Position numbers and translations under genes: made by a program
Assembly: GCF_003634315.1 (NCBI RefSeq)
Contig: NZ_RBXL01000001.1
Span: forward strand, 248,001 to 312,000
DNA from: Thiocapsa rosea
GTDB lineage: Bacteria; Pseudomonadota; Gammaproteobacteria; Chromatiales; Chromatiaceae
Length of the DNA: 64,000 bases
Direction of reading: 5' to 3'
Shown here: positions 2,803-60,940 of the stretch, piece by piece
Layout: every line of letters begins with the position of its first letter
How positions within the stretch are numbered: the stretch's first letter is position 1
Notes under the pieces: model-generated
The model's input: only the letters and a program-made list of their open reading frames with translations
The model's database searches: none
Told to the model about the DNA's origin: nothing

Positions 2803-2887
2803 TAAACCGCGTCCAGAGTGAAATGCGTCGTTCTCATTCTGTGTCTGGCTTCGGCGACTTCTTCGGCCTCACTGGAGACGCGGTTTA
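2803..2887. repeat. 84-bp-class TAAACCGCG repeat, copy 1
   Basis: An 85-bp unit bounded by TAAACCGCG and CGCGGTTTA. It is a diverged member of the type A subfamily (starts CCAGAG after the terminal repeat). After 23 bp of AT-rich DNA a second, degraded unit starts with TAAACCGAG at 2911. Confidence 0.8.
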
Positions 2888-2991
2888 GAAGTTCTTATTA
2901 TTCAACGCCTTAAACCGAGAAGACTCCGACTCTCGCCGATTCTGCCGCGAGGACGGTAGACTTGACCAAGTTCTTGAACAGGTCTGATGCC

Positions 2992-3258
2992 GTGAAAGTC
3001 GTCGCCTACTCCCATGCGCGCAACGCCCTGAAATCCATGCTGGATGATGTCGTTCGGGATGCGGACGTGACCATTATCAGCCGTCGCGATGCCGAAGGCG
3101 ATGCCGCGGTGATGTCCCTCGACCACTACAACAGCCTGGTGGAGACCCTGAATCTTCCCTCGACACCCGCCAATTCCGAGGCATTGGCCTGCGCGATTCG
3201 GCAGGATCAGGCGTGCGAGGCCCAGCCACGAGCCTTGCTCGACACGGACGGCGGTTGA
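2992..3258 (+). CDS. yefM: YefM/Phd-type antitoxin
   Basis: DNA-binding antitoxin of a type II toxin-antitoxin system; members neutralise the YoeB mRNA interferase and repress their own promoter. The N-terminus from GTG 2992 (VKVVAYSHARNALKSMLDD) matches the Phd/YefM beta-alpha domain, followed by ISRRDAEGDAAVMSLDHYN, the family core. The frame stays open upstream to TTG 2962, but homologues begin at the KVVAYS strand, so GTG 2992 is preferred; 88 aa. The adjacent YoeB gene is truncated, so this is probably an orphan antitoxin. Confidence 0.85.
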   Translation: MKVVAYSHARNALKSMLDDVVRDADVTIISRRDAEGDAAVMSLDHYNSLVETLNLPSTPANSEALACAIRQDQACEAQPRALLDTDGG

Positions 3259-3260
3259 TC

Positions 3261-3580: not shown

Positions 3581-3670
3581 GGGTACGCCGACTTCAGTCG
3601 GCCCCCGGGGAGGCGGACTTCAGTCCGCCGTGCGGGCGTGCTCGGGGGGCCGACTAAAGTCGGCGTACCC
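3581..3670. repeat. Composite palindromic (REP-like) element
   Basis: The outer 22-bp arms at 3581-3602 and 3649-3670 are inverted copies of each other with one mismatch. Each arm also contains its own small palindrome (GCCGACTTCAGTCGGC type). A third palindrome, GGCGGACTTCAGTCCGCC, lies between them at 3612-3629. The same GGCGGACTTCAGTCCGCC core recurs at 10730-10747. Confidence 0.75.
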
Positions 3671-23135: not shown

Positions 23136-23326
23136 TAAACCGCGTCCAGAGCGACATGCGTAATTTTCATTGTTCGTTTGGCTTCGGAGATATCCTTGGT
23201 CTCAGTGAGACGCGGTTTAGAATTTAAGATTTTTAATACTTTAAACCGCGCCGGCTCCGACAGTCGTGGGAGCCGGCGCGGCCAAGCCATCCACCAAATT
23301 ACGCATACCGCACCGAGCGCGGTTTA
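23136..23326. repeat. 84/85-bp TAAACCGCG repeat pair (types A and B)
   Basis: Type A unit 23136-23219 (84 bp) and type B unit 23242-23326 (85 bp) are separated by 22 bp of AT-rich sequence. The first TAA (23136-23138) was the native corA stop before the insertion sequence arrived. The second unit ends 15 bp from the soeC stop, so the pair fills the space between two convergent genes. Confidence 0.9.
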
Positions 23327-28887: not shown

Positions 28888-29379
28888 GGTTTTCTCAGTG
28901 GAATCTGTTGCTTGGACGCCGATAATCCCGCCCGGGAGAGTCGGTTGAGCTGCCCGCTCGGCAACGAAAGGAAACATGCCGACAACAAGCTGTTTCCTTT
29001 TCGTCACACACTGCATCTCATGCGTCAAGTTTAGTATCAAAACGCAACAAACGACAACCAGGCAAACGCTTTTTTTCGCTAAATCGATCACGGGAAGCGA
29101 AAAAAACATCGAGTCGATCAGCGGTACTTTGCAGGACAGAGAGACGCATCTGTTGTCGAGATGCAACGCGGAGGCGGCTTCGACCACTTTTCCTGGTTGC
29201 GGATCTACTTGCGGTGTAGGGGCGAATTCATTCGCCCCTACACCGCGTCTCGCCGGAGTCGAGGACATCTCCGAAGCCAAACGCAACGTGAAAACGACGC
29301 ATGTCGCTCTGGACGCGGTTTAGAGTCCCGACAGGTCTTCCGGGCATGCGCAGTCGGGATGACGATTCCCGGAAATCAC
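28888..29379. other. Intergenic region with hairpin and repeat
   Basis: No gene. A palindrome with 13-bp arms (GTGTAGGGGCGAA) lies at 29215-29244. Next to it, and sharing its last bases, is an inverted type A repeat at 29239-29322 ending CGCGGTTTA. The stretch 28990-29120 is AT-rich and may contain the promoter for the small gene at 28887. Confidence 0.5.
29239..29322 (-). repeat. 84-bp TAAACCGCG repeat, type A, inverted
   Basis: Reads on the minus strand as TAAACCGCGTCCAGAGCGAC and ends GAGACGCGGTGTA. The far end is altered where the neighbouring GTGTAGGGGCGAA palindrome overlaps it. Confidence 0.8.
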
Positions 29380-31364: not shown

Positions 31365-31448
31365 TGAACCGCGTCCTGAGTGATAACCGATGTTTGGCGG
31401 GAAACGGCCGCGCGAGCACTTGGAGAGCCCCGTGCCTGACGCGGTTCA
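31365..31448. repeat. 84-bp TGAACCGCG repeat, unrelated interior
   Basis: Bounded by TGAACCGCG and CGCGGTTCA, exactly 84 bp. Its interior does not resemble types A or B. It directly abuts the start codon of the ATPase gene. Confidence 0.85.
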
Positions 31449-33866: not shown

Positions 33867-34577
33867 ATGGTCAAAAGTGTCACGCTGCGGGAAGCCTGGT
33901 CCGGTGAGGCCGACTGCCTCAACTGCTCGCTTCGCACCTCGGTCCTCTTCGCGGGATTGGCCGAATCGGATTTCGAGCAGATCCACGACCCGATCGACCA
34001 GTACACCTTAAAACCCGGCACCAGCCTCTACCATACGGGCGACGCTGCCGAGCACATGTTCACCGTACGCACCGGTGTCCTGAAATTGGTGCAGTATCTC
34101 CCGGACGGGAGTCAGCGGATCGTGCGGATCGCGCGCACCACCGATGTCCTGGGCCTGGAGGCGATGCTCGAAGGCGGCACCTACCAACACGATGCCATCG
34201 CCCTTCAGCCAACCGAGGTCTGCCGCTTCCCCGCCCGATTGGTCCGCGACCTGGGCAGCAACAACCCGGAGTTGCATCGCGAGCTGATCTCGCGCTGGCA
34301 ACGCGCCTTGAACGAGGCCGACGCCTGGCTGACCGAGCTTTCCACCGGTTCCGCCCGGCAGCGCATCGCCCGGCTCTTGTTGCGCCTGGTCCGCGATCGC
34401 GAGAGCAGTGCGTGCCAATTGTTCAGCCGCGAAGACATGGGCGCCATGCTCGGCATCACCACCGAGACCGCCAGCCGCACCATCGCCGAATTCAAACGCC
34501 AGAGCCTTCTGGTCGAGACCAGCCCCAACCGCTTTCTGCTCGACATCCCCAACCTCAAGCGCATCGCGGAGGGTTGA
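33867..34577 (+). CDS. Crp/Fnr-family regulator with Fnr-type cysteines
   Basis: 236 aa from ATG 33867; the frame is open to GTG 33780, so a longer start is possible. The cyclic-nucleotide-type domain is followed by a helix-turn-helix (SREDMGAMLGITTETASRTI). Glu200, Ser203 and Arg204 match the Fnr recognition residues for TTGAT half-sites. Cys17, Cys20 and Cys119 align with three of the four Fnr cluster ligands, and Val26 stands where the fourth should be, with identical spacing. It could hold a cluster differently or sense something else. Its TGA is the first triplet of an 84-bp repeat. Confidence 0.88.
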   Translation: MVKSVTLREAWSGEADCLNCSLRTSVLFAGLAESDFEQIHDPIDQYTLKPGTSLYHTGDAAEHMFTVRTGVLKLVQYLPDGSQRIVRIARTTDVLGLEAMLEGGTYQHDAIALQPTEVCRFPARLVRDLGSNNPELHRELISRWQRALNEADAWLTELSTGSARQRIARLLLRLVRDRESSACQLFSREDMGAMLGITTETASRTIAEFKRQSLLVETSPNRFLLDIPNLKRIAEG

Positions 34578-34767
34578 AACGCGTCCGGTGCGATATGCCG
34601 TGTTCTCGGCGAGGCTCGACATCGCGCGTACCCGAAAGCGCCGTGGAGACGCGTTTCAAGAAGCTGTTTGATTTTACTATCCTGAACCGCGTCCCTGCAG
34701 ACACATCGGGTGTACTCCATCGCCTTCATCTACAACCCAGGTCGGCACGGAGCGAAGACGCGGTTCA
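34575..34767. repeat. 84/85-bp TGAACCGCG-type repeat pair
   Basis: Units at 34575-34658 (TGAAACGCG ... CGCGTTTCA, 84 bp) and 34683-34767 (TGAACCGCG ... CGCGGTTCA, 85 bp), separated by 24 bp rich in T. Interiors are unrelated to each other and to types A and B. In the first unit both ends carry the same changed base, so the inverted repeat is conserved by compensation. The first triplet is the stop of the Fnr-like gene. Confidence 0.85.
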
Positions 34768-37626: not shown

Positions 37627-37636
37627 GGGAGCGATC

Positions 37637-38779
37637 ATGATCATCGACTACGAAGTCCTGAAGTTCATCTGGTGGGTGCTGGTCGGCGTGCTCTTGATCG
37701 GCTTCGCCGTGACCGACGGCATGGACATGGGCGTCGGCGCACTCCTGCCTTTCCTGGGCAAGACCGACGAGGAGCGGCGCGTCATCATCAACACCATCGG
37801 CCCGCACTGGGACGGCAACCAGGTCTGGCTGATCACGGCCGGCGGCGCCATCTTCGCCGCTTGGCCGCTGGTGTATGCGACCGCCTTTTCGGGGTTCTAC
37901 TTTGCGATGCTGCTCGCGCTCTTCGCGCTCTTCTTCCGGCCGGTCGGTTTCGACTACCGCAGCAAGATCGCGGATCCGCGCTGGCGCAGCGCCTGGGATT
38001 GGGGGCTCTTCATCGGCGGGGTGATCCCGGCATTAGTCTTCGGGGTCGCCTTCGGCAATCTGCTGCTCGGCGTGCCCTTTCATCTCGACGATATGCTGAG
38101 ATCCTTCTATACGGGCAGCTTCTTTGGCCTTTTCCATCCGTTTGCGCTCTTGGCGGGCATCCTGAGTGTGACCATGCTGACGATGCACGGCGCCGTCTGG
38201 CTCCAGATCCGGGCGGCCGAGCCTATCGCGTCGCGCGCCAAGGCAGCGGCTCGGATCTTCGCACTCATCAGCATGGCCGTGTTCGCGCTCGCCGGGGTCT
38301 GGCTGATCATCGGTGTCGACGGCTTCAAGGTGGTCTCCATGCCCGCGCTCGATGCGACGCCCAACCCGCTCACCAAGGAGGTCGTTGCGGACTCCTGGGC
38401 CTGGTTGGCCAACTACGGCGCCCATCCGTGGACGTTGCTCTTCCCCGTGCTCGGCTTCGCGGGCCTCTGGGCGACGATGAAGCTCGCCGCCGCCAATCGT
38501 CCGGGCTGGGGTCTGGTGACCGGCAGTCTGGCGATCACCGGCATCATCGTGACCGCCGGGGTGAGCCTCTTCCCCTTCATCCTGCCCTCGCGCACGGATC
38601 CCAACAGCAGCCTGATCGTTTGGGACGCGGTCTCCAGCCATCTGACCCTGACGGTGATGTTCTGGGCGGCGGTGATCTTCATCCCGCTGATCCTGGCCTA
38701 CACCACCTGGACCTATACCAAGATGTGGCGGCGTGTGACGGTGGAGGAGATCCGGGAGCAGGAGCATTTGGCGTACTAA
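37637..38779 (+). CDS. cydB: Cytochrome bd quinol oxidase subunit II
   Basis: 380-aa membrane subunit with family motifs WWVLVGVLLIGFAVTDGMD, GPHWDGNQVWLITAGGAIF and FLFHPF-like SFFGLFHPFALLAG. It pairs with CydA to form bd oxidase. GGGGAGCG upstream of ATG 37637. The TAA stop (38777-38779) is also the first triplet of an 84-bp repeat. Confidence 0.97.
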   Translation: MIIDYEVLKFIWWVLVGVLLIGFAVTDGMDMGVGALLPFLGKTDEERRVIINTIGPHWDGNQVWLITAGGAIFAAWPLVYATAFSGFYFAMLLALFALFFRPVGFDYRSKIADPRWRSAWDWGLFIGGVIPALVFGVAFGNLLLGVPFHLDDMLRSFYTGSFFGLFHPFALLAGILSVTMLTMHGAVWLQIRAAEPIASRAKAAARIFALISMAVFALAGVWLIIGVDGFKVVSMPALDATPNPLTKEVVADSWAWLANYGAHPWTLLFPVLGFAGLWATMKLAAANRPGWGLVTGSLAITGIIVTAGVSLFPFILPSRTDPNSSLIVWDAVSSHLTLTVMFWAAVIFIPLILAYTTWTYTKMWRRVTVEEIREQEHLAY

Positions 38780-38924
38780 ACCGCGTCCAGAGCGACTAGC
38801 GCCGTTTTCATTGTGCGTTTGGCTGCGCAGATATCCTTGATCCCAGTGAGACGCGGTTTAGAATTTAGGATTTGTAACCGCACCGGGTCCGATAAATTGA
38901 GCATACCGCGCCGGGCGCGGTTCA
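38777..38924. repeat. TAAACCGCG repeat pair between cydB and cydX
   Basis: Type A unit 38777-38860 (84 bp), then 14 bp AT-rich, then a shortened type B unit 38875-38924 ending GCGCGGTTCA. The type B copy keeps its two ends and lacks about 35 interior bases. It separates cydX from cydAB. Confidence 0.88.
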
Positions 38925-39009: not shown

Positions 39010-39132
39010 ATGTGGTATTTCGCTTGGATCCTCGGCGTGCTGCTGGCACTCGCCTTCGGCATCATCAACGTCATGTGGTACGAATCCGAGGAGTGTTTCA
39101 GACACACCGGGGACGCACGACCGGACAATTAA
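39010..39132 (+). CDS. cydX: Cytochrome bd small subunit CydX
   Basis: 40-aa single-helix subunit that stabilises the haems of bd oxidase. It reads MWYFAWILGVLLALAFGIIN, then VMWYESEEC with the conserved W-Y-E triad. GAGGAGA stands six bases before ATG 39010. It lies 230 bases after cydB, separated by the repeat pair, so it may need its own promoter or read-through. The stop TAA at 39130 opens another 84-bp repeat. Confidence 0.93.
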   Translation: MWYFAWILGVLLALAFGIINVMWYESEECFRHTGDARPDN

Positions 39133-39213
39133 ACTGGGTCCAGCGCGAGATGCTCACTTTCGAGTGAACTCGACGTGCGGTGCATCCACGGACCTTAGCG
39201 GGGACGCGGTTTA
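39130..39213. repeat. 84-bp TAAACTGGG/CGCGGTTTA repeat
   Basis: Exactly 84 bp, first triplet equals the cydX stop. The left end is diverged (TAAACTGGG). It is followed by AT-rich bases up to 39230, but no second unit. Confidence 0.75.
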
Positions 39214-40071: not shown

Positions 40072-40368
40072 ATGGAAAAGACCCACGCAATCGATACCGC
40101 GTTGCTGCAACGGCTCAGAAAACTGCTCGGCCATCGCTGCGAGCACGACGGGCAGGTCTGGCGCCTGATCGACATCCTCCCCGGCGAGGGACTCGCGGTG
40201 CTGGAATCGGATCTCGCCCGACCTCCGATCCAGATGGACCAATACGGTCGCGCCAGCCATCGCGCCAACGCGATCCTGCAGGTCCGAATCCTGGACCCGG
40301 TCGCGGGCGAACTCACGCGCGAGATGCAAGATCTCCTGGACTGCCTCCAATCGACGCTACGCGCCTGA
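40072..40368 (+). CDS. Conserved small protein of unknown function
   Basis: 98 aa from ATG 40072 with CAGGAG six bases upstream. Contains LRKLLGHRCEHDGQVWRLID, LPGEGLAVLESDLARPPIQ and YGRASHRANAILQVRILD. The pattern suggests a small beta-rich fold like a regulatory or OB-type domain. No name is assigned. It follows the strong terminator, which may attenuate it. Confidence 0.7.
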   Translation: MEKTHAIDTALLQRLRKLLGHRCEHDGQVWRLIDILPGEGLAVLESDLARPPIQMDQYGRASHRANAILQVRILDPVAGELTREMQDLLDCLQSTLRA

Positions 40369-40400
40369 GTCACGGCGACGAAGCCTGGTCGAGCCACAAT

Positions 40401-40427
40401 GACGCATGTCGCTCCGGACGCGGTTTA
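40401..40427 (-). repeat. Fragment of a type A repeat
   Basis: Only 27 bp: on the minus strand TAAACCGCGTCCGGAGCGAC and a few more bases. Its TAA is the kdsB stop codon. Confidence 0.75.
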
Positions 40428-41225
40428 CGCCAGATGCCGCTCGGCCTTCAACAGATCGGAGGCCGTATCCACACCCGGCCCCGGCTCGGACACGGCGATC
40501 GCCACATGGATACGCTCGCCGTGCCACAGCACGCGCAGCTGCTCCAGAGACTCGGCAACCTCCAGGGGTGACGGCGCCCAAGCCAGATAGCGTTTCAGGA
40601 AGCCGACGCGGTAGGCATAGAGCCCGATGTGGCGAAGGAAGGCGACCGATGTCGGCAGCTCGGGATGATCGGCCAGAAACTCGTCGCGGTGCCAGGGCAT
40701 CGGGGCGCGCGAAAAATACAGGGCGTAGCCCTTCGCGTCCGTGACCACCTTGACGACATGGGGATCGAAGAGGGTCGCCCGCGCGGAGATCGGTGCGGCC
40801 AACGTCGACATGCCGAGATCGGCGATTCCGGCGAGGTCGCTCGCGACCTGATTCAGCAAGGCCGCCGGCATCGCCGGCTCGTCGCCCTGCAGGTTGACCA
40901 CCACCACGTCGTCGTGCCAACCGCGCAGCTCGATCACCTCGGTAATACGCTCGGATCCGCTGCGGTGCTCGCTGCCGGTCATGACCACCTCGGCGCCGAA
41001 ACCCTGACAGACCTCGGCGATGCGTCGGTCATCGGTCGCGACCAGGATCTCCTCGGCGCCGCTCTCGCGCGCACGCTCCACGACATGCTGGATCATCGGC
41101 TTTCCGGCGATCGGTATGAGCGGTTTGCCGGGCAAGCGCGTGGAGCCGTAGCGCGCGGGGATGACGATCTTAAATCCGATGGATTCCTCTGACATCGCTC
41201 GAGAGGACATTTCTCGATCAGACAT
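40425..41225 (-). CDS. kdsB: 3-deoxy-manno-octulosonate cytidylyltransferase
   Basis: Makes CMP-Kdo for lipopolysaccharide. 266 aa. Motifs IPARYGSTRLPGKPL, ATDDRRIAEVC, NLQGDEPAMPA and FLRHIGLYAYR are typical. ATG 41225 overlaps the end of lpxK by 8 bases and has GGAGG nine bases upstream; a later in-frame ATG at 41195 fits homologues equally well. Last gene of the exbB-exbD-msbA-lpxK-kdsB run. Confidence 0.93.
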   Translation of the reverse strand: MSDREMSSRAMSEESIGFKIVIPARYGSTRLPGKPLIPIAGKPMIQHVVERARESGAEEILVATDDRRIAEVCQGFGAEVVMTGSEHRSGSERITEVIELRGWHDDVVVVNLQGDEPAMPAALLNQVASDLAGIADLGMSTLAAPISARATLFDPHVVKVVTDAKGYALYFSRAPMPWHRDEFLADHPELPTSVAFLRHIGLYAYRVGFLKRYLAWAPSPLEVAESLEQLRVLWHGERIHVAIAVSEPGPGVDTASDLLKAERHLA

Positions 41226-42201
41226 GGCTCGGTGCCTCCAGCTTGCGAAAAAATGCCTCGACGAAGGCCGTATCCAGCTCGGCCTGCACGGGCAAAAACC
41301 AATGATCCTCGCCGGCAAAGCGCGCGCACTTCACGGCGTCCTTCTCGGTCATGAGCACCGGGCCTGGCGGCCAGTCTGCAAGATCCGTCGGTGCGAAGGG
41401 ATAGTGATCCGGGTAGGCGAGGCCCTCGACCTCAAGACCCAGAGCGCGCAGCATGGCAAAGAATCGCTCGGGGTTACCGATCGCCGCGACCGCAAAGACG
41501 GGCCGCCCGATGAAGTCGGCGATCGGCTTGGACACGGCGGGGTCGCGGAGATTGACCGCCGCGCCCGGAATCAAACGCATGCGGTATCCATTACCCAAGC
41601 CGTCGCCGTTGGTCAGCACCAGATCGACGTTGGCCAGACGCCCGCGTGGCTCGCGCAACGGCCCGGCGGGCAGACAGCGGCCGTTGCCCAAACCGCGCGC
41701 GCCGTCGACGACTGCGATCTCGATGTCTCGGGCGAGCCGATAGTGCTGGAGCCCGTCGTCGGCGAGCAGGACGTCTACATCGCCCCGAGACAGTGCAAGC
41801 GCACCGGCGGCAACACGATCCCGTCCGGCGACGACGGGGCAGTCGCTGCGACGCGCCAGCAGCACCGGCTCGTCCCCGACATCGGCAGGCTCGCTTTCAG
41901 GAGAGACCCGGCGCGGCGCAACCGGGCCGCCTCCGCCATATCCTCTGGTGATGATTCCTGGACTCCAACCACGCGCCCGCAGCAGCTCAGCGAGCTTAAG
42001 AACGGCCGGGGTCTTGCCGGTCCCGCCGACGGTGAGATTGCCGACCACCACGACAGGTACCGACAGGTGCCGGCTCGCGAGCCAGCCTTTGCGGTAGCCT
42101 AGGCGGCGCAGTTGGACCACCAAACAGTAGAGCCAGGAGAGCGGCGCGAGGATGAGACCGAGCGGATGACGGCCGTACCAGATCGGGTTCGGGTCTATCA
42201 T
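41218..42201 (-). CDS. lpxK: Tetraacyldisaccharide 4'-kinase
   Basis: Phosphorylates the lipid A precursor at the inner membrane. 327 aa. The N-terminal membrane-associated helix (WYGRHPLGLILAPLSWLY) precedes the P-loop VGNLTVGGTGKTP. ITRGYGG and LLADDGLQHYRL are family motifs. ATG 42201 is preceded by the codons of an unrelated extension and starts at the conserved NPIWYG. It is separated from msbA by a repeat pair, although the two usually adjoin. Confidence 0.94.
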   Translation of the reverse strand: MIDPNPIWYGRHPLGLILAPLSWLYCLVVQLRRLGYRKGWLASRHLSVPVVVVGNLTVGGTGKTPAVLKLAELLRARGWSPGIITRGYGGGGPVAPRRVSPESEPADVGDEPVLLARRSDCPVVAGRDRVAAGALALSRGDVDVLLADDGLQHYRLARDIEIAVVDGARGLGNGRCLPAGPLREPRGRLANVDLVLTNGDGLGNGYRMRLIPGAAVNLRDPAVSKPIADFIGRPVFAVAAIGNPERFFAMLRALGLEVEGLAYPDHYPFAPTDLADWPPGPVLMTEKDAVKCARFAGEDHWFLPVQAELDTAFVEAFFRKLEAPSHV

Positions 42202-42290
42202 CCCGGCCCGCCCGCCCTGTCGGCTGCACCGCGACGCGGGAGGCTCGACGCGGCGCCGAGTGGGTTGTGCTTCCTGACGTCGGTATAACC

Positions 42291-42480
42291 TAAACCGCGG
42301 CCAGAGCGACATGCCTCATTTTCGTTTTGCATTTGGCTTTGGAGATGTCCTTGATCTCGGTGAGACGCGGTTTAGATTTAATATTCTTAATCTCTTAAAC
42401 CGCGCCGACTCCAACGCTCGTCACGTTTGCCGGGGCCGATCCCATCCAAAAACATCGCATACCGCACCGGGCGCGGTTTA
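42291..42480. repeat. TAAACCGCG repeat pair between msbA and lpxK
   Basis: Type A unit 42291-42374 (84 bp), 21 bp AT-rich spacer, type B unit 42396-42480 (85 bp). The complement of the last three bases is the msbA stop TAA. This is the best-preserved pair and can serve as the reference copy. Confidence 0.92.
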
Positions 42481-44259
42481 AGACGCGGCCGGGGGCTCGC
42501 CGGCATCGTGGAATTGGAGGCGATGCAGCCGTGCGTAATAGCCGTCCTGCGCCAGCAATTCGCCGTGGGTGCCCTGCTCGACGACGCGTCCGTTGTCCAT
42601 CACCAGGATGCGGTCGGCGTTCTCGATGGTGGAGAGCCGATGGGCGATCATGAGTGTCGTGCGATTCGCCATCAACTCCTGCAGGGCGGCCTGGATATGG
42701 CGCTCGGATTCGGTGTCGAGCGCGGAGGTCGCCTCGTCCAGGATCAAGATCGGGGCGTCTTTGAGCATCGCCCGGGCGATCGCGAGACGCTGGCGCTGCC
42801 CGCCGGAGAGCATGACGCCGCGGTCGCCGATGCGTGTCTCGAAGCCCTCGGGCAGGGCCTGGATGAAATCGAGCGCGTGAGCGTTCACGGCAACACGCTC
42901 GAGCGTCTCGCGGGTCGGCGGCTCGGCCTGACCATAGGCGATGTTGTTGGCGATGCTGTCGTTGAAGAGCACCACATCCTGACTGACCAGCGAGATCTGG
43001 GCGCGCAGACTGGCCAGGGTCAGATCGCGAATCGGGATGCCGTCGATCAGGATCTCGCCCGCACTCGCATCGTAGAAGCGCGGCAGCAGGCTTGCGACCG
43101 TGCTCTTGCCGCTGCCCGAGCGTCCGACCAGCGCGACCCGCTCGCCCGGGGCGATGAGGAGATCGAGATCCTGGATCGCCGGCGGCTTGTCGGGCGAATA
43201 GACATGGGTGACGCCGCGATACTCGACGCGCCCCTCGGCACGCTCCAGGGTCCGCCGTCCTTGATCACGCTCCTCCTCCGCATCCAACAGCTCGAACAGG
43301 CTCTGGGCGGCAATGATGCCGCGTTGTAGATGGGCGTTGACGGAGGTCAGACGCTTCACCGGCGGCAAGAGCAGACCCATGGCGACCACGAAGGACATGA
43401 AGGTGCCGACCGAGATGTCTTCCTTCAGGCCCTGCATGGTTGAGAGATAGACGATGACGGCGATCGCCACGGCCGAGATCAGTTGAACCAGCGGCACGCT
43501 CGCCGCCTCGGTCGCGATCATCTTCATCTGCAGCGAGCGGGTTTTCTCGTTGATGGCGCTGAAACGTTTCGCCTCCAGCGGCTGCCCCCCGAACGCCTTG
43601 ACCACCCGATGGGCCTCGATCGCCTCCTGCGCGACCTGGGTCAGGGCGCCGACCCGGTCCTGGATGCGCCGGCTGTGGCGGCGAAAACGCTTGGTCGCAT
43701 ACTTGACCGCGCCGGCCATGAGCGGACCGATCACCAAGAAGATCGCCGACAGGGCCGCGTTCAGATAGAGCATGTAGGCCATCAGGCCGATGACGGTGAA
43801 GCCGTCGCGGACCAGTGTCGTGATCGCCGAGGTGGCCGCGGTGGCGACGTTCTCCACGTTGTAGGTCAGCTTGGCGAGGATGTGGCCCGAACCCTGATTG
43901 TCGTAATAGCGGGTCGGGGCGCGCAGCAGATGCTCGAACATCTTTTGGCGCAGATCCGCGACCACGCGCCGCCCGACCCAGCTCAAGCAATAGTTGTTGA
44001 TGAATCCGGCGATCCCGCGAAACACGAAGAGCACCACCAGCACGAACGGCATGAGGCGCACGATCTCCTCGTTGCGGTCCACGAAGCTGCCGTCGATGAG
44101 CGGCTGCATCATGGCCGCGAAGAGCGGTTCGGTCGCCGCGAAGGCGATCATGGCGACGATCGAGACGCTGAACATGCGCCAGTAGGGTTTGACGTAGCCC
44201 AGCAGCCGGCGATAGATGGGGCCGGCCTCGACCTCGGAGCGGGACGCGTCGTGGGTCAT
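42478..44259 (-). CDS. msbA: Lipid A export ATP-binding/permease protein MsbA
   Basis: Homodimeric ABC flippase for lipid A. 593 aa. Six N-terminal transmembrane helices, then Walker A GRSGSGKST, signature LSGGQRQRLAIARA, Walker B ILILDEATSALD and H-loop MIAHRLST. ATG 44259 overlaps the exbD stop as ATGA, so the two are translationally coupled. Confidence 0.95.
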   Translation of the reverse strand: MTHDASRSEVEAGPIYRRLLGYVKPYWRMFSVSIVAMIAFAATEPLFAAMMQPLIDGSFVDRNEEIVRLMPFVLVVLFVFRGIAGFINNYCLSWVGRRVVADLRQKMFEHLLRAPTRYYDNQGSGHILAKLTYNVENVATAATSAITTLVRDGFTVIGLMAYMLYLNAALSAIFLVIGPLMAGAVKYATKRFRRHSRRIQDRVGALTQVAQEAIEAHRVVKAFGGQPLEAKRFSAINEKTRSLQMKMIATEAASVPLVQLISAVAIAVIVYLSTMQGLKEDISVGTFMSFVVAMGLLLPPVKRLTSVNAHLQRGIIAAQSLFELLDAEEERDQGRRTLERAEGRVEYRGVTHVYSPDKPPAIQDLDLLIAPGERVALVGRSGSGKSTVASLLPRFYDASAGEILIDGIPIRDLTLASLRAQISLVSQDVVLFNDSIANNIAYGQAEPPTRETLERVAVNAHALDFIQALPEGFETRIGDRGVMLSGGQRQRLAIARAMLKDAPILILDEATSALDTESERHIQAALQELMANRTTLMIAHRLSTIENADRILVMDNGRVVEQGTHGELLAQDGYYARLHRLQFHDAGEPPAAS

Positions 44260-44774
44260 TCGGCGACCTCCCCTGCGGATGGCTGAGCGGGCTGTGGTAG
44301 CGATGGCGGGACGGACGGCCCGGACGCGGGTCGAGTCGGCTCGGCATCCGAATCGACCTGCAGCGCGCGGGTCGCCGCAAAGGCGATCTGCACCAAACCC
44401 GCTTGACTGGCCGCATCGAGCGCCGTCATGACCGCCTGATGCGGCGTCTGTGCATCGGCCTGGATCAACACGGGCAAGGGCTCTCGTTCACCGCGACGTT
44501 CCTTCAAAACCGCGACCAGGGTCTCGGTCTTGCGATCGAGCACGGCCCGATCATCGACATTGAAGGACCCGGTCCGATCGATGACAAGCCGGATCATCTC
44601 GGGCTCTTCGGCCGGGATCTCCTCGCCTTGCGCCTCGGGCAACTGCACGCGCAGCCGCGCCTCGTCCTTGAAGGTGGTCGAGACCATGAAGAAGATCAGC
44701 AGCAGAAAGACGACATCGATCAGCGGGGTGAGATTGATGTCGGCCGGGTCGCGACGGTGCGGACGCAGATTCAC
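44256..44774 (-). CDS. exbD: ExbD/TolR-family biopolymer transport protein
   Basis: 172 aa with one N-terminal transmembrane helix (INLTPLIDVVFLLLIFFMV) holding the proton-path aspartate, and a periplasmic domain. GTG 44774 overlaps the exbB stop (GTGA). A Pro-rich C-terminal tail (GPSVPPSLPQPAQP) follows. In this place upstream of msbA the pair is commonly found in proteobacteria; it energises outer-membrane processes rather than being Tol-Pal itself. Confidence 0.92.
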   Translation of the reverse strand: MNLRPHRRDPADINLTPLIDVVFLLLIFFMVSTTFKDEARLRVQLPEAQGEEIPAEEPEMIRLVIDRTGSFNVDDRAVLDRKTETLVAVLKERRGEREPLPVLIQADAQTPHQAVMTALDAASQAGLVQIAFAATRALQVDSDAEPTRPASGPSVPPSLPQPAQPSAGEVAE

Positions 44775-45397
44775 GCGGAGACCTCGCCGGCCTCGCGCTC
44801 GCCCTTCATCACCTCCACCAGACGCAGCGACTGCTCCTCCATGTCGAGCGCGAGCCGCGCGACCTTGTTGTCGAAGAAGCGATGGAACATCAGCGCCGGG
44901 ATCGCGACCGATAGACCGGCCGCCGTCGTGATCAGCGCCTTGGAGATCCCGCCGGCGAGGATGGCGGCGTTGCCGACACCGGCATCCATGATGACGCCGA
45001 AGACATCGATCATGCCGATCACGGTCCCCAGCAGGCCCAGCAGCGGAGCCACCGAGGCGATCGTCCCCAGGCTGTTCAGAAAACGCTCCAGCTCGGCCAC
45101 CACCTGTCGGCCCGTGTCCTCGATCGCCTCCTTCATGATCTCGCGCGAGTGGTTGCGATTGATGAGTCCGGACGCGAGCAGGCGCCCGAGCGGGGAGCCG
45201 GTGCGGATCTCCTCGATCCGCGCATCCGTCAGCTCGCCCCGACGGTGCCACTCCCAGATCCGGGTCACGAGATTCGCCGGCATGATCCGCGAGCGGCGCA
45301 ACGTCCAGCCACGCTCGATGACGACGGCGGTTGCAATGATCGAGCAGGCGACGATCGGCACCATCAGCCACCCGCCAGCATACATCACTTCAAGCAA
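44771..45397 (-). CDS. exbB: ExbB/TolQ-family proton channel protein
   Basis: 208 aa with three transmembrane helices: MLEVMYAGGWLMVPIVACSI at the start, LGTIASVAPLLGLLGTVIGM, and ALITTAAGLSVAIPALMFH. These are MotA/TolQ/ExbB hallmarks. The start ATG 45397 has GAGGGAAGC upstream and lies 13 bases from an 84-bp repeat. Confidence 0.93.
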   Translation of the reverse strand: MLEVMYAGGWLMVPIVACSIIATAVVIERGWTLRRSRIMPANLVTRIWEWHRRGELTDARIEEIRTGSPLGRLLASGLINRNHSREIMKEAIEDTGRQVVAELERFLNSLGTIASVAPLLGLLGTVIGMIDVFGVIMDAGVGNAAILAGGISKALITTAAGLSVAIPALMFHRFFDNKVARLALDMEEQSLRLVEVMKGEREAGEVSA

Positions 45398-45410
45398 GAG
45401 GGAAGCTCCT

Positions 45411-45494
45411 TAAACCGCGCCCAGTGCGGTCTGCGATAGTTTGGATTGGATCAGCCTCGGCAAAAACAACGGCCGCCGGAACTGGCGCGGTTTA
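45411..45494. repeat. 84-bp TAAACCGCG repeat, unrelated interior
   Basis: Exactly 84 bp between TAAACCGCG and CGCGGTTTA. Interior unlike types A or B. It sits just upstream of exbB within a 376-bp gap to lemA that has no other recognised feature except the lemA promoter region. Confidence 0.85.
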
Positions 45495-45773
45495 AACAAA
45501 GACTCAAAAACAACCGCAACGTGAACCGCGGTGTTCGCCTTTGACGCAAGAACGCAATGGTACTCCCTCGACCCGCATCGGCAACCCGGCGCAAAGCGGC
45601 GGGGTCGGTCCGCCGTGCGCGAGCGGGCTCGACCCCTGCGTGCCCGCCCCTGCTTACCCCGCGGGAGTATGTTAGCCTTCCGGCGCATTGCCGAAGGCCG
45701 CGCGGCCTCGGCCGGACATCGGACCCGGCGACTGCCGGGCTCGGGGGACAATCATCATCGAAGGGGAACACCG

Positions 45774-46355
45774 ATGGGATGGACACTGCTTGGACTGATC
45801 CTGCTGGCCGCGATTCTTGTCGTCGTCATCTACAACCGCTTGGTTGCCGGACGCAATCGCTACAAAAACGCCTTTGCTCAGATCGACGTCCAGCTCACGC
45901 GTCGCTATGACCTCATCCCGAATCTGGTCAAGGTCGCCGAGCGCTACATGACCCACGAGCGCGAGACGCTCGAGGCCGTCATCCAGGCCCGCAACCAGGC
46001 GGTCGGCAGTCTCAAGCAGGTCGCGGCCGATCCAAGCGACGGCGCCGCGGTGGCGATGCTGGCCCAAGCGGAGATGGGCGTGGCCGGCGCGCTAGGTAAG
46101 CTGTTCGCGCTCTCCGAGGCCTACCCCGACCTCAAGGCCAATCAGAACATGATGCAGCTCTCCGAGGAGCTGGTCAGCACCGAGAACCGCGTAGCCTTCG
46201 CGCGCCAGGCCTTCAACGATGCCGTCATGGGCTACAACACCCTGCGCGAGGTCTTCCCGAACAATCTGATTGCGCAGCGCTTCGGGTTTACGGCCGCGCA
46301 GTTGCTGGAGATCGATGCACCGGAGAAACGCGAGGCCGTCACAGTCGCCTTCTGA
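45774..46355 (+). CDS. lemA: LemA family protein
   Basis: 193 aa. One N-terminal membrane helix (LLGLILLAAILVVVIYNRLV) and a helical domain with the family motifs NAFAQIDVQLTRRYDLIPNL and ARQAFNDAVMGYNTLREVFP. Start ATG 45774 has AAGGGG upstream. LemA is often paired with an M48 or TPM-type protein, as here. Its TGA opens an 84-bp-class repeat. Confidence 0.93.
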   Translation: MGWTLLGLILLAAILVVVIYNRLVAGRNRYKNAFAQIDVQLTRRYDLIPNLVKVAERYMTHERETLEAVIQARNQAVGSLKQVAADPSDGAAVAMLAQAEMGVAGALGKLFALSEAYPDLKANQNMMQLSEELVSTENRVAFARQAFNDAVMGYNTLREVFPNNLIAQRFGFTAAQLLEIDAPEKREAVTVAF

Positions 46356-46549
46356 ACCGCGCTCGTGGGTCTTTGGAAGGATTGCGTTCGGGAACGACCT
46401 CCCCCTGATCCAAGAACACGGCGGAGCGCGGTTCAGGATATTTTTTCGATTTTTTAAAACCTTAAACTGCGTCCGCGCCGACGCCGGTTGAGAGCCTCCG
46501 AGGCCGAACCCGAATGAGAACCCCGCATGAACACTAGGGACGCAGTTTA
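46353..46549. repeat. 83/87-bp TGAACCGCG/TAAACTGCG repeat pair
   Basis: Unit 46353-46435 (TGAACCGCG ... CGCGGTTCA, 83 bp), a 27-bp spacer with long T and A runs, and unit 46463-46549 (TAAACTGCG ... CGCAGTTTA, 87 bp). In each unit the two ends match each other. The first triplet is the lemA stop, and the last base is two bases from the start of the peptidase gene. Confidence 0.88.
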
Positions 46550-46550
46550 A

Positions 46551-48467
46551 TTGGACTTCTTCGCGCATCAGGACCGCGCCCGTCGGCGCACGCGTCTGCT
46601 CGTGGTGCTGTTCGTGCTCGCCGTGATCAGCATTGTGGCCGTCGTCGACGTGGTCGCGCTCTCCTTCCTGGGGCTCGGCTCGGATCCGGAGGGGGTCGTG
46701 TTCTCCCCGACGCTTTCGCCGGAGGCAGTCCGCGAGAGCCTCCCGCTGCTCATCTGGGTCTCTGTGCTGACCGCGGGTGCGATCGGTCTCGCCAGCCTGT
46801 TCCGCATCCTCACGCTGCGCAACGGCGGCGGGGGGGTGGCGCGCGGCCTCGGCGGCGTGATGGTCAATGCGGACACCACGGATCCGCAGCTGCAGCGCTT
46901 GCGCAACGTGGTCGAGGAGATGGCCATCGCCGCGGGCGTGCCGGTGCCTCAGATCTACGTGCTCGAGCAGGAAGACGGTATCAATGCCTTCGCCGCCGGC
47001 TATTCCCCGGCCGATGCGGCCATCGCAGTCACCCGGGGCGCGCTGCGGACACTGAACCGCTCCGAGCTGCAGGGCGTCGTCGCACACGAGTTCTCGCACA
47101 TCCTCAACGGCGACATGCGGCTGAACATTCGGCTGATCGGGATCCTATTCGGGATCCTGGTGCTGGCCATCATCGGCCGACTCATGCTCTCGGTGCGGCA
47201 TGGCCGGGCGAGCAAGCACACCGCCGCGATCGCCATGATCGGCCTCGCGCTGGTCGCGACCGGCTATATCGGGCTCTTTTTCGGCCGGCTGATCCGGGCG
47301 TCTGTCTCGCGTCAGCGCGAGTTCCTGGCCGACGCCTCGGCCGTGCAGTTCACCCGCGAGCCGGAAGGGATCGCGGGCGCCCTGAAGAAGATCGGCTCGG
47401 CGCCGGCCGGATCGGCGCTCGCCGCGGACAGCGAGGAGATCGGGCACATGCTGTTCGCTTCGGGGCTCACGCGCCGGCTCTTGGCCACACATCCGCCGAT
47501 CGCCGATCGCATTCGCGCGATCGAGCCGGGTTTCGATCCGGGAGAGCTCGAAACGATGCGGGTGATGCAGACCCCGGCTGCGCCGAGCGAGGCCGGCGTC
47601 GTCGCCTCGATGGACGAAACCCGGCCTGCCGCTGGAGGTCGACCGAGCCCGTCGAGTCTCGATGCCGATCGCATCGTCGAGGCCATCGGCCGACCCGATA
47701 CGGCACGGATCCAGGTCGCGGCTCGTCTGAACCAGGCCATCCCGGAGCCACTCGCACGCGCCGCCCGCTCCACCGAGTGGGTCATGACGCTGGTCTGCTA
47801 TCTTCTGATCGACCCGGATCCCGAGATCCGCGAGCGTCAGCTCTTGATGGTCGCCGAGACACTCGGCAGCGAGGGCGAGCGTCAGGTGAGCACGCTCCTT
47901 TCCGCGGTGCCGAGCCTGGCCGCGGACCTGCGCATCCCCCTGATCGAGATCGCCTTCCCGACCCTGCGCCGTCGTCCGCAGACCGAGCTGACACGCCTGA
48001 TGGCGCTGCTCGATCGGCTGATTCATGCCGACGGGCGCATCGATGCCTTCGAGTATGTCCTGGCACGCCTGCTCGCGCAGCAGATCCAAGACACCATCGC
48101 CCCGACCGATGCACACAGCGCCGGAACCGCGCATCTCTCCGGCTGCGAAGACGCGATCCGCGATCTGCTGGTCATCCTGGCCATGCACGGCAACCCGGAT
48201 CAACGCACCGCACGGACCGCCTTCGCCGCCGGTCTGGCGTCGCTCGGGATGCGTCCGCGCGAATTAGCCCCTATCGGACCGGACGACTGGCCGGATCGTC
48301 TCGATCGTGCGCTCGCCCGGCTCGATCGCCTGCGCATGGCCGACAAGCAGCGCCTGCTCCGTGCCCTGCTCGCGACCGTGCAGCACGCCGGGATCAGCCG
48401 GACGGAGATCGAGCTGTTGCGTGCCGTCGTCGCGGCGCTCCATGTCCCCTTGCCGGTGCTGGACTGA
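46551..48467 (+). CDS. M48 family membrane metallopeptidase with TerB-like C-terminus
   Basis: 638 aa. HtpX-like zinc protease: membrane helices near residues 15-40 and 65-85, zinc motif VVAHEFSHILNGDMR near residue 180, two more helices, then REFLADASAVQFTREPEG with the third ligand. The part after residue 330 is not found in HtpX and contains LMALLDRLIHADGRIDAFEY, which resembles TerB. The first codon is TTG 46551, directly behind a repeat, with no Shine-Dalgarno; a repeat insertion may have replaced an ATG and its leader. The stop overlaps recJ. Confidence 0.88.
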   Translation: MDFFAHQDRARRRTRLLVVLFVLAVISIVAVVDVVALSFLGLGSDPEGVVFSPTLSPEAVRESLPLLIWVSVLTAGAIGLASLFRILTLRNGGGGVARGLGGVMVNADTTDPQLQRLRNVVEEMAIAAGVPVPQIYVLEQEDGINAFAAGYSPADAAIAVTRGALRTLNRSELQGVVAHEFSHILNGDMRLNIRLIGILFGILVLAIIGRLMLSVRHGRASKHTAAIAMIGLALVATGYIGLFFGRLIRASVSRQREFLADASAVQFTREPEGIAGALKKIGSAPAGSALAADSEEIGHMLFASGLTRRLLATHPPIADRIRAIEPGFDPGELETMRVMQTPAAPSEAGVVASMDETRPAAGGRPSPSSLDADRIVEAIGRPDTARIQVAARLNQAIPEPLARAARSTEWVMTLVCYLLIDPDPEIRERQLLMVAETLGSEGERQVSTLLSAVPSLAADLRIPLIEIAFPTLRRRPQTELTRLMALLDRLIHADGRIDAFEYVLARLLAQQIQDTIAPTDAHSAGTAHLSGCEDAIRDLLVILAMHGNPDQRTARTAFAAGLASLGMRPRELAPIGPDDWPDRLDRALARLDRLRMADKQRLLRALLATVQHAGISRTEIELLRAVVAALHVPLPVLD

Positions 48468-57486: not shown

Positions 57487-57570
57487 TAAACCGCGTCTGG
57501 AGTGTTATGGGTTGTGTTCATTTTGGCTTGTTCTCGGGGCCATCTGCATCGACGGTGAAGGCGCGGTTTA
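57487..57570. repeat. 84-bp TAAACCGCG repeat, unrelated interior
   Basis: Exactly 84 bp. It directly abuts the start of the oxidoreductase gene and is followed without gap by the heptamer array. Confidence 0.85.
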
Positions 57571-57667: not shown

Positions 57668-59236
57668 TCAACCGTTCCCTCCCGACGCCAAATCGCCGCG
57701 AAGCACCTCCGCCTGCCGGCGAATCGCACCGAGGCGCTCGGGTTCCAGCCGCGCGAGATTCCGCCATTGCAGCGCGGTACGCGGATGGTTGGCGAACCGA
57801 TCCCGGTGCCGATCGAGAAAATCCCAGTAAAGCGTCGTGAACGGACAGGCGCTCTCCCCGACGGCCTCCTTCGGATCATAGCGGCAGTGCCGACAATAGT
57901 TGCTCATCCGATTGATGTATTGGCCGGTCGCGACATAGGGTTTGGAGGCCAACAGCCCGCCGTCGGCGTATTGGCTCATCCCGATCACGTTGGGCGCCTC
58001 GACCCATTCGACGGCATCGACGAACATCGCCAGGTACCAGGAATGGACCTCGCGCGGTGCGACCCCGAGCAGCAACACGAAGAGCCCGGTCACCATCAGG
58101 CGTTGGATATGATGGCCGTAACCGTATTCGAGCACCTGTCCGATCGATGCCTCGAGACAAGCGTAGTCGGTCTTTCCGGTCCAGTAAAAATTCGGGAGCG
58201 GACGGTGTGCCTCCAGGGCATTCGACTCCAGATAGACCGGCCCTTCGCGCCAGTAGATCCCGCGCACGTATTCACGCCAGCCGAGGATCTGGCGGACGAA
58301 GCCTTCGACCGAGGCGAGCGGTGCCTGGTTCGCCTCGAAAGCCGAGATCGCGGCGTCGATCGCCGTGCGCGGGTCAAGGAGCTTGAGATTGAGGGCGGCG
58401 GAGATCCGCGCGTGATAGAGATAGGGCTCGCCGGTCCACATGGCGTCTTGCCACGGGCCGAACGCGGCGAGCCGGTTGCGGATGAAGTCCGCGAGCGCCG
58501 CGCGGGCTTGGGCCGCGGTCACCGGCCAGTCGAAGCGCTCGAGGTTGCCTGGCGCGTCGGGGAAACGCCGCTCGATCACCGCGATCAGGTCCCGCGTGAT
58601 GACGTCGGATGGAAAACCGATCGGTTCAGGGACCATGCCCGGACCCTGCCGACCGAAGGACTTGCGGTTCTCTTGGTCCAGGTTCCACTGCCCGCCGACG
58701 GGCTGCGCGGCATCTGACGGCCCTTCCATCAGGATTCCTTCACGCTTGCGCAGATGGCGGTAAAAGTGCTCCAAGCGGAGCCCTTTGCGACCGGCCGCCC
58801 AGCGATCGAACTCGGTGCGAGAGCAGATGAAGTGCGCGTCCGGGCGGATCTCGAGCGGCACCGCGCTGGCCTCGGCGACGCCTTGCAGAGCCGAGAGAAC
58901 GCGATGCTCCCCCGGTTCGGTCAGGATCAAGCGCTCGGGACGCAGGACCCGAATCGCCGCGGCAAGACCGGCAGCGAGCGACGGATCGGCCTCGGCATCC
59001 AGCGCCCGATAATGGACGCTGACGCCCGCCGTCTCCAATGCCTCGCGGAAGTGCCGCATCGCGGACAGAAACAGCAGAATCCGGGCCTTGTGCGAAGGCA
59101 CGTGGGTCGACTCCTCGACCGCCTCGCACATCCAGACCCGATCCCGTGTCGGATCCAGGTCGCGCAAAGCCGGGCCTGCGGCATCGAGCTGATCCCCGAG
59201 CACCAGCACCAGATGTCGACAGCGTCGATCAGCCAT
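57668..59236 (-). CDS. Iron-sulfur bacterial cryptochrome/photolyase (PhrB/CryB type)
   Basis: 522 aa. The N-terminal LVLVLGDQLDAAGPALRDLD is the FeS-BCP antenna domain. GWREYVRGIYW and MVTGLFVLLLGVAPREVHSWYLAMFVDAVEWVE (split here as two motifs) bind FAD. Cysteines in YACLEAS, NYCRHCRYD and SACPFTTLYW match the [4Fe-4S] ligands. The family repairs (6-4) photoproducts or acts as a light sensor. ATG 59236 overlaps the ligase stop by 8 bases. Confidence 0.93.
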   Translation of the reverse strand: MADRRCRHLVLVLGDQLDAAGPALRDLDPTRDRVWMCEAVEESTHVPSHKARILLFLSAMRHFREALETAGVSVHYRALDAEADPSLAAGLAAAIRVLRPERLILTEPGEHRVLSALQGVAEASAVPLEIRPDAHFICSRTEFDRWAAGRKGLRLEHFYRHLRKREGILMEGPSDAAQPVGGQWNLDQENRKSFGRQGPGMVPEPIGFPSDVITRDLIAVIERRFPDAPGNLERFDWPVTAAQARAALADFIRNRLAAFGPWQDAMWTGEPYLYHARISAALNLKLLDPRTAIDAAISAFEANQAPLASVEGFVRQILGWREYVRGIYWREGPVYLESNALEAHRPLPNFYWTGKTDYACLEASIGQVLEYGYGHHIQRLMVTGLFVLLLGVAPREVHSWYLAMFVDAVEWVEAPNVIGMSQYADGGLLASKPYVATGQYINRMSNYCRHCRYDPKEAVGESACPFTTLYWDFLDRHRDRFANHPRTALQWRNLARLEPERLGAIRRQAEVLRGDLASGGNG

Positions 59237-60809
59237 GGCGACCCGAGGCCGAATAGGCGATTTGGCTCCGAAAGAGCGCTTGGACCATCGCGATATCGTC
59301 GGCCTGATCCGCAGTCTTGTCCGGGCGATAGCGTTTCACGCGCGCGAAGCGCAAGGCGAGCCCGCCCGGGTACTGTGGACTTTCTTGAACCTCGTTGAAG
59401 GCGATCTCGACGACCAGCTCGGGCCGAACATGCACCACCGGGCCATCTTGCGCCACCGCGAGCGCGCTCAGACGCTCGGTCTGCCAGGTGAGCATCGCAT
59501 CCGTCAGACCCTTGAAGGTCTTGCCCAGCATGACGAATCCGCCTGCCGGGTCGCGTGCACCCAGATGCAGATTGCTCAGCCAACGGCTGCGCCGGCCGCT
59601 GCCCCGTTCCGCCGCCAGGATCACCAGATCGAGCGTCTGCGTCGGCTTGATCTTGAGCCACTGCCGACCGCGCGCACCGGCCGCATAGGGCGCCGCCGGA
59701 TCCTTGGCCATGATCCCCTCGTGACCGGCGGCGATTGCGCGCGCCAGAAAGGCCCGGGCATCGGCCGCATCAATCGGCTGCAACCTCGGGATGAGCGCGC
59801 GCTCCGGAACCAACTCGGCAAGTGCTGCGAAACGCTCGCGCGCCGGGGCATCGATCAGGAGTGTCCCGTCACATTGGATGCAGTCGAAGAAGAAGACGCT
59901 CAGGGGCAGCTCGGCACGCAGTCTCGCGACGTCGAGTCGCCGACCGAAGCGGCGCATGCTGGTCTGGAACGGGTGCGGTCGCCCGTCCGCACGCAGCGCC
60001 AGCACCTCGCCGTCGAGCACCAGGTCCGCAACGGGAAGCGGTGCGATCAGCTCGGGAATCTCCGGAACTGCCGCGGTGACCTCATGGCCCTGCCGGCTGT
60101 AGACCCGAACCTCATCGCCACGCTTGTGCACCTGCACGCGGGCGCCGTCGAGCTTGAACTCGAGATCGGGCGCTGCGAGTCGGGAGAGCGCGTCGTCGAG
60201 GTCCTCCGCGGGCTGGGCGAGCATTGGGAGAATCGGGCGAAAGAGTTCGAGACCGATCGCGCTTAGCCCCGCGGCACCGGTGTCGAAGGCCGTGCGCGTG
60301 ACCCGCGCCGGATCGCCGCTCAGCATGAGGGCGCGCCGAACCAGTGCGGGATCCAGCCCGGCCGCCCGCGCAACCGCCTCCATCACAAGTGCCTCGACCG
60401 CCCCTTGCCGCAGCTCGCCAAGCATCAAGCGGGCAAGAAATCCCTGCTCCTCGCGTGTGGCCTTCTCGAACAACGCCTGCAGCAGCGCCCGACGCTGTGC
60501 CTGAGCACCGGCACCCTTGACGGCGAGCAGGGCATCGAATGTTCGATCCAGGTCGCCGAGGGTCAAACGGCCCTGCTCGACCGGGACCAGTCCGCGGAGT
60601 GCATCCACCAGCACCGGCCCCACCCCGACGCGACCTTGCGGGATCTGCCCGGCGAGATAGCTCGCCGCAAGTGCAGTCTCCTCCCGATCCAGCCGACCGA
60701 TCACGTCCGCCATCAGACCGATCTTGTCACGCCGCGACGGGCGGGTGGTCACGTCAGCCGAGAGTCGAACCAGCGTTTCGAGCGTTGTCGCAGAGGTATC
60801 CATAGGCAT
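59229..60809 (-). CDS. ATP-dependent DNA ligase
   Basis: 526 aa. Archaeal/eukaryal LigI-like layout: helical DNA-binding domain (residues 1-200), adenylation domain with motif I EFKLDGARVQVHK near residue 218, EGIMAKDP and WLKIKPT, and a C-terminal OB domain. Independent of NAD; the essential NAD ligase must lie elsewhere. No LigD polymerase or nuclease parts. Coupled to the photolyase gene, suggesting a joint role in repair after light damage. Confidence 0.93.
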   Translation of the reverse strand: MPMDTSATTLETLVRLSADVTTRPSRRDKIGLMADVIGRLDREETALAASYLAGQIPQGRVGVGPVLVDALRGLVPVEQGRLTLGDLDRTFDALLAVKGAGAQAQRRALLQALFEKATREEQGFLARLMLGELRQGAVEALVMEAVARAAGLDPALVRRALMLSGDPARVTRTAFDTGAAGLSAIGLELFRPILPMLAQPAEDLDDALSRLAAPDLEFKLDGARVQVHKRGDEVRVYSRQGHEVTAAVPEIPELIAPLPVADLVLDGEVLALRADGRPHPFQTSMRRFGRRLDVARLRAELPLSVFFFDCIQCDGTLLIDAPARERFAALAELVPERALIPRLQPIDAADARAFLARAIAAGHEGIMAKDPAAPYAAGARGRQWLKIKPTQTLDLVILAAERGSGRRSRWLSNLHLGARDPAGGFVMLGKTFKGLTDAMLTWQTERLSALAVAQDGPVVHVRPELVVEIAFNEVQESPQYPGGLALRFARVKRYRPDKTADQADDIAMVQALFRSQIAYSASGRHG

Positions 60810-60856
60810 CCGGCTCGTCGATGCAATCGGTTCCGATCTCCGACTTCCGGATCTCT

Positions 60857-60940
60857 TAACCGCGCCGACTCAAACGGTCGTCAGGTCTGCCGGGCCCGAC
60901 CCCATCCAAAAACATCACATACCGCACCGGGCGCGGTTTA
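60857..60940. repeat. TAAACCGCG repeat, type B, single
   Basis: A type B unit nearly identical to 42396-42480 in its right two thirds (CCATCCAAAAACATC, ATACCGCACCGGGCGCGG). One A is missing at the left end. The complement of its last three bases is the fpr stop. Confidence 0.88.

Follow-up and report, generated by a model that had tools for sequence, protein, structure and literature searches.

The 64,000-bp stretch of the Thiocapsa rosea genome analysed here (hereafter the window, with positions counted from its first base) carries a family of short repeats of nearly fixed length, and each of the 18 places at which the original prediction had listed one holds a copy or a fragment (Table 1). 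A rule-based search recovers fifteen full units, 83-87 bp long; a sixteenth is found at 39130-39213, and those at 38875 and 40401 are fragments. Many full copies have the ends TAAACCGCG and CGCGGTTTA that had been ascribed to all of them, but those at 31365, 34575, 34683 and 46353 start with TGA, that at 46463 with TAAACT, and those at 29239 and 60856 with the altered ends given in the table. Units also close neighbouring called genes: the stop codon of the gene at 33780-34577 is the first TGA of the dimer beginning at 34575, that of 37637-38779 is the TAA of the A unit at 38777-38860, that of 45531-46355 is the left TGA of the dimer beginning at 46353, and the reverse-strand genes at 42478-44259 and 60938-61783 stop at the right ends of the dimer beginning at 42291 and of the unit beginning at 60856, respectively.

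Table 1. Repeat units, dimers and fragments in the window
Feature	Position	Strand	Details
Family A unit	2803..2887	+	Decayed dimer: degenerate partner from 2911, past an A+T-rich linker
A+B dimer	23136..23326		A 23136-23219 (IS-like end left), 22-bp A+T linker, B 23242-23326 (IS-like end right)
Family A unit	29239..29322	-	Left end altered: TACACC
Untyped unit	31365..31448		Ends TGAACCGCG/CGCGGTTCA
Untyped dimer	34575..34767		34575-34658 (TGAAACGCG/CGCGTTTCA, compensated), 24-bp linker, 34683-34767 (TGAACCGCG/CGCGGTTCA)
A unit and truncated B-like unit	38777..38924		A 38777-38860; B-like unit ends at 38924
Family C-type unit	39130..39213	+	Left end with two changes; family assigned by eye
Fragment	40401..40427		Right end of an A-type unit, by eye
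A+B dimer	42291..42480		A 42291-42374, 21-bp linker, B 42396-42480
Family B unit	45411..45494	+	By rule and interior similarity
Untyped dimer	46353..46549		46353-46435 (TGAACCGCGCT both arms), 27-bp linker, 46463-46549 (TAAACTGCGTC both arms)
Untyped unit	57487..57570		Ends TAAACCGCG
Family B unit	60856..60940	-	Left end altered: TTAACC

Across the 6.1-Mb T. rosea genome, the exact end pattern is matched 590 times and its reversed control not once, and permitting T[AG]A ends raises the count to 689. Unit statistics, dimers and stop-codon counts were taken from 1.24 Mb of this genome (G000:C1:1-1240000, G000 being T. rosea itself). There we delimited 237 units, of which 231 measure 83-87 bp, as predicted, and among the exact-end pairs that span 30-300 bp, 134 of 201 fall at 84, 85 or 86, with a second peak at 191-193 that corresponds to the dimer. 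The matches to the pattern but not to its reversal, together with these span peaks, exclude a chance origin. An inverted-repeat scan made without regard to sequence gave no peak at 84-86 beyond the known units and added few doubly compensated ones. The exact pattern occurs at least once in 28 of 194 genomes of the family (own included), many of these with 1-3 copies, and in 8 of the 11 genomes of the genus (own included; 9 with T[AG]A ends); among the matches listed, the strict pattern is found in Thiocapsa, Thiocystis, Thiobaca, Lamprocystis, Thiorhodococcus and one Chromatiaceae metagenome-assembled genome. Rfam gave no match within the window at gathering score, and we found no description of the family in the open-access literature, most subscription journals and ISfinder lying outside the search: the words 'repeats' and 'palindromic' do not occur in the main text of the Thiocapsa bogorovii genome paper (PMC10892978), for which one 'palindromic repeats' is nonetheless indexed, nor does 'repeat' in PMC8767323.

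By interior similarity, 172 of the 237 units fall into three families, A (44), B (92) and C (36), while the other 65 are untyped. The types A and B and the several unrelated interiors that had been described thus stand in part, as 65 interiors no longer align but all others belong to one of three families, and the ordinary decayed repeat whose interiors would align fully once more copies were added is approached by most units, not by all. The untyped units are singletons with a best interior match of 0.40-0.62, which exceeds 0.5 in 51 of 65, compared to none of 60 shuffled interiors. One outer end, asymmetric and with ATGC around base 21, is common to families A, B and C; 19 of the 65 untyped units show a weak similarity to the end of an insertion sequence (IS; see below) that lies above the 95th percentile of shuffles. 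While 106 units are single, 66 neighbouring pairs form dimers, with a gap of 19-31 bp (exactly 23 in 31 of them) and a linker that is 81% A+T. In 50 of the 66, a B unit is joined to an A or a C unit with the ATGC ends facing outward; 11 are formed by two untyped units (5 clearly outward, 2 in the same direction and 4 without clear direction), and 5 are other combinations. The arms are 11 bp long, with Watson-Crick pairing in 96-99% of the 237 units at the first nine pairs and in 88 and 85% at the next two. RNAalifold, applied to families A, B and C in both directions, returned the closing stem and at most a few small inner helices, with no conserved inner fold, and for family B in one direction the closing stem was absent too. 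Two further observations concern family B: its single units are unevenly oriented on the + strand (30 one way and 11 the opposite way, G000:C1:1-1240000), and a near-perfect palindrome of 44 bp that has the same ends (G000:C1:1213323-1213366) appears to be a B unit shrunk to its inner hairpin.

The outer ends connect these units to IS630-type elements. A search of the genus for IS630-type genes gave 48 matches in 9 of 11 genomes, of which 30 loci were listed, and one of the 26 new loci is bracketed by unit ends (at most one change): L263 in genome G175, an element of 1277 bp. Its transposase-proximal end aligns with the A unit at 23136-23219 of the window over 51 bp at 80% identity (E 1.4e-4), and a search with a fragment of its transposase gave relatives in 12 of the 194 genomes of the family. 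At all 19 of the 30 listed relative loci that were inspected, at least one end starts with TAAACC, and these ends share 21-29 of 33 bases with the A-type end. Complete elements of relatives measure 1274-1277 bp and their ends match the outer unit ends; two of the transposases score above the cut-off of the NCBIfam IS630 model and match Pfam DDE_3. In seven IS copies with two ends (5 full-length, 2 shorter), the similarity continues beyond the arms, with IS bases 12-34 matched by family A at 13-20 of 23 positions and by B or C at 12-17 (random sequence: mean 5.7, 99.9th percentile 12), while the inner unit ends, with 5-11 matches, show no resemblance. Family A prefers the IS 5' end in 6 of these 7 copies and B has no clear preference, so that a derivation of B from the 3' end and of A and C from the 5' end is at most possible. 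None of the seven DDE_3 loci of T. rosea is bracketed by the 11-bp ends (at most one change), and the IS630 genes of its own genome were rejected as partners. Elsewhere, genome G107 holds three IS copies with an identical 405-residue open frame (L286, L295 and L300) and two exact short units, and L305:1371-1768 is a 398-bp segment with IS-type ends and little transposase, possibly a step from IS to mini-element.

That the units have moved is seen from comparisons, by 300-bp flanks, among the T. rosea genome, 0.8 Mb of genome G139 and 120 named loci of relatives. The comparison of occupied and empty sites that had been proposed yielded 78 filled and 25 empty sites out of 173, the 70 that were neither cleanly having been dropped before counting. 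The empty sites correspond to 15 dimers and 10 single units, one dimer locus being counted from two source genomes. In 14 of the 25 the gap is two bases long (TA 8, CA 4, TC 1 and CG 1), and three of the four CA gaps are TGA stop codons on the opposite strand. Around the 168 insertion groups the context is YTAR, with Y before the group in 165 and R after it in 162. As the TA flanking ISY100, an IS630-family element, is described as target and not part of the element (PMC2170065), the TG/CA change at the ends should arise after landing.

IS-like outer ends, a TA-type target and empty sites together identify the units as miniature inverted-repeat transposable elements (MITEs) of IS630 type. They are short, of non-coding length, with terminal inverted repeats, IS-matching ends and both filled and empty sites; a TA target duplication is present, though not at every site, and the autonomous partner in the same genome that MITEs usually have, but a relic family need not, was not found in T. 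rosea at E<=1e-30. The suggestion that such repeats are odd for a simple MITE holds insofar as they are more than a plainly decayed one, but they are mobile DNA of a known type, and the size-selected mobilisation proposed with it is no more than a conjecture.

One trait that sets them apart is the behaviour of the arms. The original prediction noted that a changed base at one end is often matched at the other, and Watson-Crick pairing indeed holds at 690 of the 715 stem positions of the 65 untyped units, against a mean of 614.5 and a maximum of 633 in 2000 column shuffles, while 57 paired positions deviate from the consensus, against 19.6 (maximum 28). At the second base, 31 of these units are TG/TG, 30 TA/TA, only one mixed TA/TG, and 3 other. 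This agreement belongs to the unit and not to the dimer, since 15 of the 26 dimers with two self-consistent units and at least one TG unit disagree between units and 11 agree (a count over all sequences compared, with orthologs included and some loci represented from more than one species). Substitutions per site in 64 comparisons of orthologous units amount to 0.053 in the stem, 0.164 in the interior and 0.087 in 40-bp flanks; by source, untyped units of T. rosea show 0.037 in the stem and 0.191 in the interior, typed ones 0.039 and 0.115. A second analysis of 35 sites gave 0.032-0.050, 0.129-0.167 and, for noncoding flanks, 0.113. Among 695 orthologous stem pairs, 55 show a change in a single arm and 8 in both arms, and 5 passed from one Watson-Crick pair to another, against 1.05 by permutation (P 0.0006); one of the 5 is the window unit at 46353-46435, which differs from its G139 ortholog by a G-C to A-T double change. 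In the young families, collected by an interior-based search (271 matches, of which 29 with an end lost or shifted were dropped), divergence from consensus is 3.5% in the stem (range 2-6%) and 10-13% in the interior. Judged from these sequence comparisons, a unit that has inserted tends to keep its two arms complementary, an effect that is weak in the young families and in one subset, and selection on the arms in place is likely, if not proven, for the old units.

The units are also found at gene ends far more often than expected. With 876 genes from a simple open reading frame caller, 76 of the 168 insertion groups give a called gene its stop codon through their terminal T.A, where about 18 would be expected from the YTAR sites outside units (1051 noncoding, 128 at stops); 80 gene ends lie at this offset and at most 9 at any other from -30 to 59. 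The G139 part agrees, with 21 of 83 groups against 9.3. At empty sites, the target already was a stop closing a frame of at least 170 codons in 11 of 23 comparisons (one locus twice), frames being measured from stop to stop with a ceiling of 500, and long chance frames being expected in G+C-rich DNA. Of nine IS copies, two lie at the end of an open frame of more than 400 codons and two more at frames of 109-112 codons, so that selection among insertions, instead of targeting, may be the source of the bias. A link between TGA ends and use as a stop codon was rejected, as there is no association (Fisher P 0.52 for untyped and 0.16 for typed units).

We therefore read the units as non-autonomous IS630-family MITEs of Chromatiaceae whose arms tend to persist after landing, and put the probability of this at roughly three in four. 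A transposase of the IS family, now lost or undetected in T. rosea, would have cut the units at AACCGCG and inserted them into TA. The basic unit would consist of one outer end of IS type to which a short inverted copy of the first 11 bp of that end is added as closure, giving a hairpin of 84-86 bp, and a common mobile form would be two different units joined as a dimer, outward-facing, with an A+T-rich linker between them. An insertion at a TAA or TAG stop would do almost no harm, since the stop is restored by the TAA of the element end. Thereafter the arms would tend to remain complementary and be slow to change, in contrast to a drifting interior, most probably owing to a mild benefit, or the avoidance of harm, from a hairpin at the end of a message or between genes. 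It is possible, as far as sequence can tell, that this hairpin acts as RNA or as DNA; the structural RNA or protein-bound unit proposed at the outset is likewise possible, but paired conservation is confined to the terminal arms, and no conserved inner fold was found.

Several observations weigh against this reading. Eleven of the 25 empty sites lack a two-base gap (gaps of -1 to 8), and 6 of the 14 two-base gaps are not TA. Neither T. rosea nor 9 of the 10 further genomes of the genus contain a match to the IS transposase at E<=1e-30, and the one that does, G175, has no exact units. As for the arms, comparisons from other source genomes show a much weaker and unexplained contrast, with 0.116 in the stem and 0.175 in the interior; detecting units through their ends biases the stem rates downward, in the worst case by enough to halve the contrast; and the young families have 159 one-sided changes against 10 paired and 4 unpaired double changes in 2662 pairs. 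Interiors have 0.12-0.22 indels per substitution compared to 0.126 in noncoding flanks, not fewer, so that a protection of length after landing is not supported. A terminator scan of window positions 28001-47900, limited to short loops, found 11 against 12.7 expected.

The strongest competitor, which we hold to be possible but clearly the less probable account, is that the units are plain, functionless MITE relics, whose stems seem conserved through end-based detection and the intact ends of mobile sources. Transposition by itself selects ends, and both the comparisons from other source genomes and the young families, with their 2-6% stem and 10-13% interior divergence and few compensated pairs, are in its favour. 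It is opposed by the orthologs of T. rosea's own untyped units with their slow stems, by TA/TG ends that are concordant within units and often discordant between the two units of a dimer, and by double changes at about five times the permuted expectation. We deem it unlikely that the units are transcription terminators or stabilisers of RNA 3' ends, spread by transposition and kept for this function: their placement at stop codons and the conservation of their stems in place would suit such a role, but the terminator scan showed no excess and stems at stops are not slower than elsewhere (0.042 versus 0.027). Template switching within a quasi-palindrome, from one arm to the other, is a known mutational process that would yield matched arms without function or selection; it predicts common double and rare single changes, the opposite of the 55 one-sided and 8 two-sided ones observed, and the stems are slow beyond being merely matched, so that we regard it as quite improbable. 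Almost no weight is left for REP/REPIN-type elements mobilised by a Y1 (RAYT) transposase, as, although REPINs are likewise paired and hairpin-forming with compensatory changes (PMC3116915), a preference for heterodimers is reported for REPs (PMC3733652) and the T. rosea genome has nine Y1_Tnp matches, none of these nine loci is bracketed by the 11-bp ends (at most one change), and the TA-type target and the IS630 end match suit a different transposase. At one locus, L155, one-change matches of 9 bases on both sides, 1.8 kb apart, were taken as chance.

Other repeats were seen along the way. Inverted repeats of the type GTAGGGTGGAC lie at G000:C1 130614, 1107265 and 1155977, and look like GTAG-tagged REPs (for REPs, see PMC3733652). 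A second family of inverted repeats, of the type GTACGCCGACTTCAGTCGGCGTAC, occurs at about 3583-3666 of the window and at G000:C1 86331, 996584 and 493786, and TCGTTG tracts, some of them adjoining or within broken units, at about 3428 of the window and at G000:C1 724275, 833137, 1131091, 469045, 845919 and 935648.

Our reading of the units as IS630-type MITEs ties an orphan repeat family to its likely parent IS. The family supplies natural copies in numbers of several hundred per genome, and as many of these occupy orthologous sites in several species, selection on a hairpin after insertion can be told from selection for transposition; its frequent insertions at stop codons are also a case in which the protein is left intact. 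A bolder version, in which an IS630-type mini-element, landing on stop codons and replacing the stop by its own end, installed a common 3'-end structure at many genes of a bacterial lineage as a 'stop plus hairpin' module, whose arms were then kept by selection in place, the transposase having been lost, we consider tentative and rather doubtful.

Known systems resemble the family in part. RUP of Streptococcus pneumoniae is a MITE linked to IS630-Spn1, with inverted IS630-type ends, insertion into TA and an intergenic location, of 107 bp and present in 108-110 copies (PMC2229807, PMC3049150); compared by description only, it differs in its host and in being described as single units, unlike the T. 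rosea family with its 84-86 bp units, heterodimers with an A+T linker, 590 exact copies and compensated arms, and without a close transposase found in the genome. ERIC likewise has inverted repeats, a terminal TA and a target duplication (PMC2229807) and reaches up to 711 copies in Photorhabdus (PMC10969869), but at 127 bp it is longer, again set beside our units by description. CIR of Caulobacter shares two long inverted-repeat arms and a linker (PMC2229807), but carries a GANTC motif, and its mobility is unclear. REPINs and BIMEs resemble the family in paired inverted units, a hairpin with compensatory changes and fixed spacing (PMC3116915), but are linked to RAYTs, whereas the T. rosea units have IS630-type ends and a TA-type target. 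BOX of S. pneumoniae supplies the stop to 36 of 58 overlapping coding sequences (PMC3049150), but is modular and has other ends, and Thiomargarita, known here by description, has other MITEs, one with TATA ends (PMC4853749). Outward-facing heterodimers with an A+T linker, hairpin arms that tend to be kept and frequent use as stop codons are uncommon traits, each of which, taken singly, has known analogues.

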